Source: Candidatus Cloacimonadota bacterium
Lineage (GTDB): Bacteria; Cloacimonadota; Cloacimonadia; JGIOTU-2
Assembly (NCBI GenBank): GCA_016932035.1
Contig: JAFGDR010000040.1
Coordinates: forward strand, 62,001-126,000
DNA length: 64,000 nt
Reading direction: 5' to 3'
The translations under genes and the position numbers were made by a program. This document shows positions 55,935 to 59,355 of the stretch, piece by piece; positions within the stretch are counted from its first letter, which is position 1; the number at the start of each line of letters is the position of its first letter. The notes below the pieces were generated by a model that saw only the letters and a program-made list of their open reading frames with translations, was not told the origin of the DNA and searched no databases.

Positions 55935-56786
55935 TTATTCGAGAATATTTTTTATCCTTGCTTCTGCAACAGCGCTCATCTCTTCATCATCAATAATGAC
56001 ATACATATCACGCGCGCGAATGTAACAACTCAATGCCATCTCCGCATCCATCAGATTTTCGTAGGCAACACCGATTGCATAGACATCATCGGCAAGTCCG
56101 CCCGTGTTCTCAATAAGCTGGTCGTATTCATGAGCAATCTCAAAGAATTCGATTGCTTTTATCCATTGCTTTTCTTTGCTCAGCGCATATCCAAGTGTAT
56201 ATGCAGCATAGGGAATGATCTTGGGGTCGTCGAGTTTGTTCTTTTTGAACATCGAACGTAAGGCGGGTATGTTACGCTTAACTTTGTCAAATTCCTGGTT
56301 ATAGGGCTGTTCTGTTTTTAGCAATGCCAGCAGCCTGTATGAAAGAAGCTCTGTCTGCATCTCTTTTTGATTTGTCTCGACTGCCAGTGAAAGCGTTATG
56401 ACCCTGCCATACTCTTCTTTATCAAATGCCACTTCCATCTGCAAAAGGTAGAGCAGCGGAATCAGGTCGGGTGCATCATTGTGCGCGATGACAGACATCT
56501 TCATATACCAGTCATCGTACTGCTCCATGTTATCAAGATAATAATACTGCCGGGCAACACTCAGCCCTGAAATAATGATGCCCTTCAGGTTGTCCACGCT
56601 TGAATAAAGATCATATGCCTTCTCAAAAAGGAGTTGTGCCTGGAAATATTTCCCGTCGGCTTCTACTTTCTGAGCGCGTTTCGTGATCTCATTTGCATCC
56701 TTTGTGGATTGCAATTCTACATATTTCGGCAAACTCGAACAGGCAAGAAGTCCAAAAAGTCCTATAAAAAGTATTATTTTTTTCAT
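55935..56786 (-). CDS. TPR-like lipoprotein
   Basis: 283 residues with a lipoprotein signal: MKKIILFIGLFGLLACSSLP, Cys16 as the lipidated residue. The mature part is helical, with TPR-like pairs such as AQLLFEKAYDLY and WIKAIEFFEIAHEYD. It overlaps the mlaD stop by 4 bases (ATGA) and so belongs to the Mla operon, perhaps as a periplasmic partner. No family name can be given. Confidence 0.7.
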   Translation of the reverse strand: MKKIILFIGLFGLLACSSLPKYVELQSTKDANEITKRAQKVEADGKYFQAQLLFEKAYDLYSSVDNLKGIIISGLSVARQYYYLDNMEQYDDWYMKMSVIAHNDAPDLIPLLYLLQMEVAFDKEEYGRVITLSLAVETNQKEMQTELLSYRLLALLKTEQPYNQEFDKVKRNIPALRSMFKKNKLDDPKIIPYAAYTLGYALSKEKQWIKAIEFFEIAHEYDQLIENTGGLADDVYAIGVAYENLMDAEMALSCYIRARDMYVIIDDEEMSAVAEARIKNILE

Positions 56787-57829
56787 TGGTCTAAATCCAT
56801 GAGTCTAATCTTTGTATTTTTTTGCTGGGTTGGTGCTTCCTCTTTGATTCCTCCGCGCAGGAAGGGATTATTGTTGAGGGCTTCCAGTGTTTTCTGAGCT
56901 GTTTGAAGTGATATCTTGCTCTTTGCAACAATATCCGCAAATTCCGGCATCTGCTGGTACATGAAATCCAAAATTTTGTTCATAGAGACAAGATTCTGGT
57001 TCAATGTCAATAGCATATCACGCATCGGGTAGATCAGGTTTTCCCTGCTGGGATCGATCAACTTGACCGCAAGATCATCGGGATCTTTGTAATTAGCAAG
57101 CATTTCATCTAGCTGCGCAGCAGTGCCTTTGAAATCATCGGTAAGGTCTGCCACATTACTGAGAATTCTGAACAATGCACCATCTTCGGGATTATTATCT
57201 TTTTGCAAGGAGGTCAAAATTGAGTTTATATTTTCCAGTGATACATCCATTTTGTCCGTCATATTTGCAAGGTTATATACCATACGGAAGAGCGCTCCCT
57301 GCTCGGGATTGTCATCCTGAGTAAGATTATAGAGAAGTTGATCCACATTCTTCAACACGGATTCCATCATATCCCCGCTCTTTTTGACGAACCCTTCTTT
57401 CAACAACCTTTTGCCTTCAGGAGTATCCAGCGACGGGATGAACTCCCCTTCTGCTAGCACTTTGCTCCAATCTGGTCCTTGCAAAAATTCCATGGTGCTT
57501 CGTCCGGTAACGGGATTCGTTGCCTTGAAGATTGCTGAATTCTCGACAATCTTGTTTCGGAATTCTTTATACACGATCAGTTCAGCATCGATTTGGTTAT
57601 TTATATTGAGTGAATACTTCTTTAACTTTCCAATTTCATATCCCTTAAAAAAGAGTTTCGTCGAATTCGACAGTCCGGTTGCATCTACGAACTGTGTTAA
57701 AAAATAATATTTCCTGTCAAAGATCCGTTTCGATATTGCGACCACAACAAGGGTAAAAATAAGTGCCATTACTGCAACAAAGAAAAAGATGCCAACGATC
57801 TTATCTGTATGCTTAAATTTAAACTTCAT
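56783..57829 (-). CDS. mlaD: MlaD-like MCE-domain protein
   Basis: 348 residues. One N-terminal membrane helix (IVGIFFFVAVMALIFTLVVV), an MCE domain (about 40-125: FVDATGLSNSTKLFFKGYEIGKLKKYSL in two parts, and RSTMEFLQGP), then a long helical region with repeated units around residues 150-260 (NPEQGALFRMVYNLANMTD and NPEDGALFRILSNVADLTD). MCE proteins form a periplasmic ring that ferries lipids between the membranes. Overlaps the ATPase gene by 11 bases. Confidence 0.85.
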   Translation of the reverse strand: MKFKFKHTDKIVGIFFFVAVMALIFTLVVVAISKRIFDRKYYFLTQFVDATGLSNSTKLFFKGYEIGKLKKYSLNINNQIDAELIVYKEFRNKIVENSAIFKATNPVTGRSTMEFLQGPDWSKVLAEGEFIPSLDTPEGKRLLKEGFVKKSGDMMESVLKNVDQLLYNLTQDDNPEQGALFRMVYNLANMTDKMDVSLENINSILTSLQKDNNPEDGALFRILSNVADLTDDFKGTAAQLDEMLANYKDPDDLAVKLIDPSRENLIYPMRDMLLTLNQNLVSMNKILDFMYQQMPEFADIVAKSKISLQTAQKTLEALNNNPFLRGGIKEEAPTQQKNTKIRLMDLDQ

Positions 57830-58565
57830 CTTCGACTCCTACCAAGTCCGATAATATATCTAATTTCTTAATGTTCTGTAAAAAGTTTTTATCTTCTTTG
57901 TATGATATTTTTTGGATAGTCCCCTTTTCGACATGCACAACCTGGTCTGCAACTGCCTTTATGATATCGAAGGAATTGCTTGAGATGATCATGGTCGTGC
58001 CTTTTTCTTTGAGATCTTTAAGCATCTGTATCACCTTGATCTGGTTCCTGATATCAAGATTGAAGAGTGGTTTGTTGATGATGATCAACTCGGGATGAGT
58101 GATGATAGCGCGAATAAAGGAGAGTATCTTTTTCGAAGTATAGGAAATGAATGCCGGTCTTTTTTCAAGCACTTGAGGTACATCAAAATAGGTGCATAAG
58201 TCCTTTATCTCTTTCATCACTTTGGATTTTATAAACTGCATTGAATAGAATTGAACCGGCAAAAGCAGATTTTCAAGCACGGTTAGATTTGAGAGAAATG
58301 CACCTTCTTGGAATACAAAGGATAACCGTTTCTTTGTTTCGATCAGTTCATGTTCCTCTTTTTCATAAAGATCGACTCCATCGATAAGCAACGTTCCTCT
58401 TAGAGGTTCATAAAAACCACCAAGTACATTGAGCAAAATCCCATTATAGTAACCATACGATCCTATGATAACGCATGTGTTTTTGTCTTTCACATCGAAA
58501 GAAATATTTTCCAGGATGACTTGTTCATCGATTTCAACTGACACATTTTTTATTTCGATATTCAT
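57819..58565 (-). CDS. MlaF-like ABC ATPase homologue with degenerate catalytic motifs
   Basis: 248 residues from ATG 58565 (ATG 58580 is the alternative). The ABC fold is plain: IEIKNVSVEID opening, Q-loop FQEGAFLSNLTVLEN (Gln86) and D-loop NLD. But Walker A reads GSYGYYNG (35-42; Lys replaced by Asn41, Ser/Thr by Gly), the signature LSGGQ reads ISYTS (140-144), Walker B ends INKP where DEP is expected (Asn164, Lys165), and the H-loop His is Asn197. The frame is intact and overlaps its neighbours tightly, so it appears to be kept by selection as a pseudo-ATPase. Partner of the MlaE permease and MCE protein. Confidence 0.85.
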   Translation of the reverse strand: MNIEIKNVSVEIDEQVILENISFDVKDKNTCVIIGSYGYYNGILLNVLGGFYEPLRGTLLIDGVDLYEKEEHELIETKKRLSFVFQEGAFLSNLTVLENLLLPVQFYSMQFIKSKVMKEIKDLCTYFDVPQVLEKRPAFISYTSKKILSFIRAIITHPELIIINKPLFNLDIRNQIKVIQMLKDLKEKGTTMIISSNSFDIIKAVADQVVHVEKGTIQKISYKEDKNFLQNIKKLDILSDLVGVEDEV

Positions 58566-58569
58566 GATA

Positions 58570-59355
58570 TTAGAGTACATAGAATAAAACGGTTATGACA
58601 ATATCAAAAACCACGACTGCGATAACCGATGACACTGCTGCTTTGATCGTACGCTGCGGCACTTCTGTTGTTGCGGTGGATACCTTCAAACCCTGGTAAC
58701 ATGAAATGAGCGCAATAGCCATTCCAAATACTATCGATTTTATCACAAAAATAATTATGTCTGCGAAAGATAATTCATAAAGGAACTGACTCACGAAATA
58801 ACCAAAATTGATCGGATAAAATATTGTTGAAAAAAGCCACCCACCAATCACTGCTGCAAGATTAAAATAAATCGTAAGAAGAAACATTGCAACGACAACA
58901 CCAATGAAACGTGACACCACGAGATATGAGATCGGTGAAATACCAAAGGATCGCAGAAGATTGATCTCATTATTAACGATCATATTGCCGAGTTCAGTGG
59001 AAATCGCTGTTCCTGACCTTGCTATTACGATAAGTGCAGTAATGATACTGCTCAACTCGCGTATCACCACTGTCACAAGGATCACATATACGAGCTGGCT
59101 CTTTCCAAAACCACCAAGTATATAGTTTCCTTCAAGAATGATAAGTCCACCGATACTCAGTGCTATGAAAATAATAAGAGGGAGTGCTTCGTAGCCGGTA
59201 AACATGATCTGACGGAGCAGTACAATGAATCCGATTTGTTTCTGGCGGTGAAAGGTAAGTGTTTTACGAAACACCTGCATCACAAAAAGATAGAACTCTT
59301 TTGTGTTTTCAAACCGTGTACGAAGACCGGCACCGAGAGATCCAAAAAGACTCAA
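58570..59355 (-). CDS. mlaE: MlaE-like ABC transporter permease
   Basis: 261 residues starting at TTG 59355, eight bases after AAGGAG. Five or six membrane helices and the conserved MlaE segment ARSGTAISTELGNMIVNNEINLLRSFGISPISYLVVSR. First gene of the operon mlaE-ATPase-mlaD-lipoprotein. Expected to move phospholipids at the inner membrane. Direction of transport unknown. Confidence 0.88.
   Translation of the reverse strand: MSLFGSLGAGLRTRFENTKEFYLFVMQVFRKTLTFHRQKQIGFIVLLRQIMFTGYEALPLIIFIALSIGGLIILEGNYILGGFGKSQLVYVILVTVVIRELSSIITALIVIARSGTAISTELGNMIVNNEINLLRSFGISPISYLVVSRFIGVVVAMFLLTIYFNLAAVIGGWLFSTIFYPINFGYFVSQFLYELSFADIIIFVIKSIVFGMAIALISCYQGLKVSTATTEVPQRTIKAAVSSVIAVVVFDIVITVLFYVL

Follow-up and report, generated by a model that had tools for sequence, protein, structure and literature searches.

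A degenerate MlaF-type protein retained across Cloacimonadota suggests an Mla-type conduit operating without an ATPase of its own

An Mla-type operon of Cloacimonadota encodes, in the MlaF position, an ABC protein that has lost its catalytic motifs, and this pseudo-ATPase trait is phylum-wide. The finding suggests that Cloacimonadota retain an Mla-type conduit running without an ATPase of its own, and a passive lipid conduit is our leading hypothesis. The window analyzed here is a stretch of 64,000 nucleotides from one such genome (2.44 Mb in 66 contigs). We refer to its operon as mla2 and to the products as MlaE2, MlaF2 and MlaD2, as distinct from the canonical Mla1.

The mla2 operon and the motifs of MlaF2

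The mla2 operon lies complete on the minus strand in the order mlaE2, mlaF2, mlaD2 and TPR lipoprotein gene. Gene calls and Pfam matches bear out the intact mlaE-ATPase-mlaD-lipoprotein operon described in a first-pass annotation of this sequence. Its genes are as follows:

58570..59355, minus strand: mlaE2, MlaE-family permease of 261 aa (Pfam PF02405, MlaE, 8e-60)
57819..58565, minus strand: mlaF2, first codon at 58565 and stop at 57821-57819, 248 aa; pseudo-ATPase, ABC fold without catalytic motifs
56783..57829, minus strand: mlaD2, MCE-domain protein of 348 aa whose C-terminal part is long (Pfam PF02470, MlaD, 1.1e-05)
55935..56786, minus strand: TPR lipoprotein gene, 283 aa; N-terminus MKKIILFIGLFGLLACSS, lipobox LLAC with Ser at +2; weak Pfam TPR_12 match

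The mlaD2 gene overlaps the end of mlaF2 by 11 bases. The PF02470 match of mlaD2 scores 26.0 bits (cut-off 25.1), so an MCE protein is encoded with the permease. At 57130-57320 (minus strand), mlaD2 encodes a repeat with the pattern DNNPExGALFRxxxNxAxxTD. No second ATPase gene was seen in the mla2 operon of the window or in the neighboring loci that were read. That MlaF2 is a nucleotide-binding domain with an ABC fold is indicated by Pfam (ABC_tran, 3e-13), AlphaFold2 and Foldseek, and its motifs are located as follows:

58440..58463, minus strand: degenerate Walker A, GSYGYYNG, residues 35-42, with Asn41 at the Lys position and Gly42 at the Ser/Thr position
58254..58319, minus strand: Q-loop with the stretch after it, FVFQEGAFLSNLTVLENLLLPV, residues 83-104; its conservation across all MlaF2 is among the highest in the protein
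58131..58148, minus strand: degenerate signature, ISYTSK, residues 140-145 (ISYTS, 140-144)
58068..58085, minus strand: degenerate Walker B, IIINKP, residues 161-166, NK replacing DE
57972..57986, minus strand: H-loop, ISSNS, residues 194-198, with Asn197 at the His position

E. coli MlaF reads GPSGIGKT, LSGGM, MFDEP and SHD in the same alignment columns, and when aligned to it, the MlaF2 of the window has no functional Walker A, Walker B, signature or H-loop. Gln86 in the Q-loop has been kept, as has the D-loop (LFNLD). The alignment thus agrees with the motifs first read by eye (GSYGYYNG, ISYTS, INKP and an H-loop Asn, with Q-loop and D-loop kept), and the losses support the central claim of the first-pass annotation, that this is a retained MlaF no longer able to be an ATPase. 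The motif loss is a solid observation, from which we infer that MlaF2 lacks ATPase activity.

AlphaFold2 predicts a confident ABC fold both for the window MlaF2 (pLDDT 90.6) and for a member of family f3 that lacks the P-loop (pLDDT 94.5), and the nearest solved folds found with Foldseek include MceG (8fed), MlaF (6xgz, 6xbd), MalK and LolD. Because the alignments behind both models include intact homologs (that of MlaF2 was built without the E. coli row), these predictions support an ABC fold rather than prove it. The best conserved columns of MlaF2 are not the catalytic sites; they fall in the stretch that follows the Q-loop (N-L-x-x-x-E-N-L-x-L-P) and close to RP...K. In ABC proteins, the Q-loop and the region that follows it face the coupling helix of the permease. 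MlaE2 retains E98, R111, E119 and K205 of E. coli MlaE together with the coupling-helix region, and it is more conserved than MlaF2 in seven of seven genome pairs, as expected if catalytic constraint were lifted from MlaF2 only. In Mla1, by comparison, ATPase and permease are equally conserved (two congeners) or the ATPase is more so (five distant genomes).

Distribution and history of the motif loss

Five other metagenome-assembled genomes (MAGs) of the genus (G001 and G003-G006) carry the same operon with the same substitutions at 64-73% protein identity, so that the loss is neither chance nor an assembly or sequencing error. Pairwise dN/dS of mlaF2 is 0.08-0.18 (NG86, pairs with dS < 1), indicating purifying selection. 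The first-pass annotation had held that normal motifs at this locus in relatives would mark a recently decayed gene and that a shared loss would mark a lineage trait; relatives carry the same loss, within the genus and, beyond it, phylum-wide.

Using the permease as the query, we found MlaE2 orthologs in 41 of 125 Cloacimonadota genomes. They are 44-93% identical and stand clearly apart from other MlaE proteins, which reach at most 34% identity. MlaF2 adjoins MlaE2 in 40 of these 41 genomes, the remaining locus being truncated by a contig end, and 39 MlaF2 sequences entered the motif table after one interrupted by unknown bases was left out. None of the 39 keeps LSGG or the H-loop His, and Walker A Gly-Lys is kept in seven (families f4, f6 and f11). 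The 24 sequences of family f3 are without P-loop, signature and catalytic Glu, and their Q-loop Gln is replaced by Asp, Asn, Glu or Ala. MlaF1 from Cloacimonadota has canonical motifs in all eight sequences compared.

An MlaD2 ortholog is adjacent in most MlaE2 loci, and the TPR lipoprotein gene holds the same operon position across phyla. Some operons are split, with mlaE2 and mlaF2 remaining paired (L178 in G018; L183 and L184 in family f7); in the single-contig genome G018, mlaD2 lies elsewhere in the genome. A loss of MlaD2 in f3 and f7, suspected from absent adjacency, was rejected: in the genomes searched, mlaD2 turned up at another place, with the exception of G081, an 82% complete genome with a weak match only. 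In the f7 loci, a predicted membrane protein of roughly 410 aa follows mlaF2. A single genome has mlaE2 spread over two frames (L038:1624-2420; G071, C89), which may reflect an assembly frameshift or a broken gene.

In a tree of MlaE proteins, obtained by a quick search with SH-aLRT support only, the Cloacimonadota MlaE2 form one clade, with Bacteroidota loci next and then Spirochaetota. The MlaF tree matches it in outline and has long branches. Both outside groups share the E-F-D-lipoprotein order with mla2, and 129 of 297 Spirochaetia genomes contain an mla2-type operon. Among 70 sampled Spirochaetia MlaF sequences, Walker A is kept in 67, the catalytic Glu in 46 and the His in 57, and most have LSxGE as the signature instead of LSGGQ. 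The partial losses of Glu and His in Spirochaetia are apparently independent (L232, L255, L271, L281, L284 and similar loci). MlaF of the Bacteroidota relatives has an LSQAQ signature and Gln in place of His.

Since the Spirochaetota homologs mostly keep their catalytic residues, the motif loss in Cloacimonadota appears to be derived and stepwise. Given the signature and His states of the Spirochaetota (LSxGE) and Bacteroidota (LSQAQ, Gln), the first losses from an active ancestor were probably those of the signature and the His. Assuming no regain, the Walker A Lys then disappeared on at least three occasions (genus g1, f3 and f7). Whether these relatives preserve stages in the conversion of a whole transporter class is a broader proposal that falls just short of probable in our estimate: a phylum-wide ABC-type lipid transporter would have given up its ATPase, keeping the nucleotide-binding domain as a scaffold only and MlaE2-MlaF2-MlaD2 as a passive bridge for phospholipids between the two membranes.

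A proposed passive conduit and its alternatives

Hydrolysis of ATP by MlaF is regarded as indispensable to Mla transport, and which way lipids flow through the system has been disputed. We find it somewhat probable that MlaF2 is a retained pseudo-ATPase with a structural role, seated at the base of the permease in a conduit that carries phospholipids passively across the envelope. Its catalytic site would have been dismantled in steps, with the fold and the permease-facing surface kept, and an MlaF2 dimer would most likely bind MlaE2 as a structural base or clamp. MlaE2, an MlaD2 hexamer and the lipoprotein would together form the conduit, through which phospholipids may move down their gradient, plausibly from the inner to the outer membrane, without hydrolysis by the mla2 complex; the canonical Mla1 of the same cell would perform the ATP-driven work. 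The strict linkage of MlaE2 and MlaF2, even where MlaD2 has moved, counts in favor of a scaffold role. MlaA and MlaC were found in none of 12 genomes searched, with positive controls in E. coli and Caulobacter, and for this reason the long MlaD2 and the lipoprotein probably span the gap to the outer membrane; a bridge of this kind has been proposed for Brucella Mpc and Veillonella.

Spontaneous, ATP-independent transfer of lipid from MlaD to MlaC has been reported, and ATP hydrolysis suppresses it (PMC10212509). An Mla complex without an ATPase could thus leak lipid outward, which makes outward passive flow a reasonable guess. Counting against the passive conduit, the Walker mutants K47A and E170Q of E. 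coli MlaF abolish function (PMC7367683) and Walker B mutants of MceG fail to stabilize Mce transporters (PMC9947336), indicating that a dead nucleotide-binding domain is harmful in related systems. The presence of active MlaF1 and MlaF3 in the same genome also weighs against it. We consider it likely that the mla2 complex works without ATP hydrolysis of its own. Operation without ATP and a structural or regulatory pseudo-ATPase, listed as separate options in the first-pass annotation, probably amount to the same thing.

MlaF2 might instead be a regulatory or inhibitory subunit that locks MlaE2 and releases it when a ligand, lipid or partner binds at the former ATP pocket. The substituted motif positions have a mean pairwise identity of 0.929 within the genus versus 0.759 for the whole of mlaF2, a conservation reached by 0.3% of circular shifts. 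Being better conserved than mlaF2 overall, the new residues are themselves under selection, which counts in favor of the retained pseudo-ATPase and also looks as if the old pocket had been repurposed. However, the motif residues are unlike between families f1 and f3, so that the phylum as a whole shares no one new ligand site, and we consider this regulatory role unlikely.

The passive conduit must also be weighed against an asymmetric dimer on MlaE2, in which MlaF2 would pair with an active MlaF (MlaF1 or MlaF3) and one ATP site would work. As one option in the first-pass annotation supposed, an active MlaF is encoded elsewhere: the source genome has a canonical MlaF1 (C45) and a third MlaF, MlaF3, with GESGCGKT, LSFGM for LSGGM, DEP and SHD (L222:3867-5459; C1:54866-56458 in its own genome). 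MlaF3 has an MCE protein gene and a MiaB-like gene as neighbors and no adjoining MlaE. Only two MlaE were found in the source genome, a count that favors sharing of MlaE2; three were found in the congeners G001, G004 and G006.

The dimer itself fared less well. An ABC dimer has two sites, and in each of them one chain supplies Walker A/B and its partner the signature. Because the MlaF2 chain has lost both halves, its homodimer would have no site, and a mixed dimer would have both sites defective and none complete. Asymmetric ABC transporters such as TAP and TM287/288 likewise have catalytic residues lost in a nucleotide-binding domain, but they place all defects in one composite site and keep the other complete, whereas MlaF2 would leave none. 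MlaF3 also does not depend on MlaE2, since G002, a congener without MlaE2, retains the MCE gene on the MlaF3 side as well as a second MlaE; furthermore, mlaF2 is the gene that stands alone with mlaE2. We therefore regard such a dimer as quite unlikely.

It is very improbable, in turn, that MlaE2 draws on a different source of energy, for instance an ion gradient, with MlaF2 as a leftover scaffold. ABC-free MCE systems are known (PqiABC and LetAB; PMC12436622), but the mla2 operon of the window has no extra membrane protein, and the acidic residues fixed in MlaE2 are all also common in MlaE1 or in Spirochaetota relatives whose MlaF looks active. A search for new acidic residues in MlaE2 that could support ion-gradient drive found none. 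Finally, although the joint loss of every catalytic motif resembles pseudogenization, a decaying gene or an assembly error can be dismissed almost entirely, as the changes are identical in six MAGs of the genus with frames open, the dN/dS values of 0.08-0.18 show no relaxed selection, and synteny is strict phylum-wide.

Comparison with known MCE systems

We found no described pseudo-ATPase nucleotide-binding domain of an Mla or MCE system in the open-access literature, in line with the remark in the first-pass annotation that no such Mla system was known. A natural dead-motor Mla complex under phylum-wide selection would mean that an MlaE-MlaD conduit can serve the cell without hydrolyzing ATP itself. 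The mla2 system would also offer natural proteins with which passive outward lipid flow could be tested, and its graded relatives a series for studying how an ABC transporter becomes ATP independent.

Like mla2, the MlaFEDB complexes of E. coli, Pseudomonas and Acinetobacter combine an MlaE permease, an ABC-fold protein in the MlaF position and the MCE protein MlaD. Unlike mla2, whose catalytic residues are all gone, they depend on K47 and E170 of MlaF (PMC7367683); mla2 further differs in having no MlaA or MlaC, a longer MlaD and an added TPR lipoprotein. Brucella Mpc (MpcEFDA) and the minimal MlaEFD of Veillonella share with mla2 the E-F-D operon and a long MlaD, proposed to reach across to the outer membrane (PMC12436622, PMC10665443). 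An outer-membrane lipoprotein belongs to Mpc as well (PMC12436622, PMC10665443); the lipoprotein of mla2 is TPR-like and not PqiC-like. In contrast to the apparently dead MlaF2, MpcF has been presented as an MlaF-homologous ABC ATPase. The gene order of mla2 is the same, with a TPR lipoprotein that may lie in the outer membrane, judging solely from a visually identified lipobox. PqiABC and LetAB are MCE lipid conduits without an ATPase (PMC12436622), as proposed here for mla2, but they use the membrane proteins PqiA and LetA and no ABC subunits, whereas mla2 keeps both the MlaE permease and the ABC fold.
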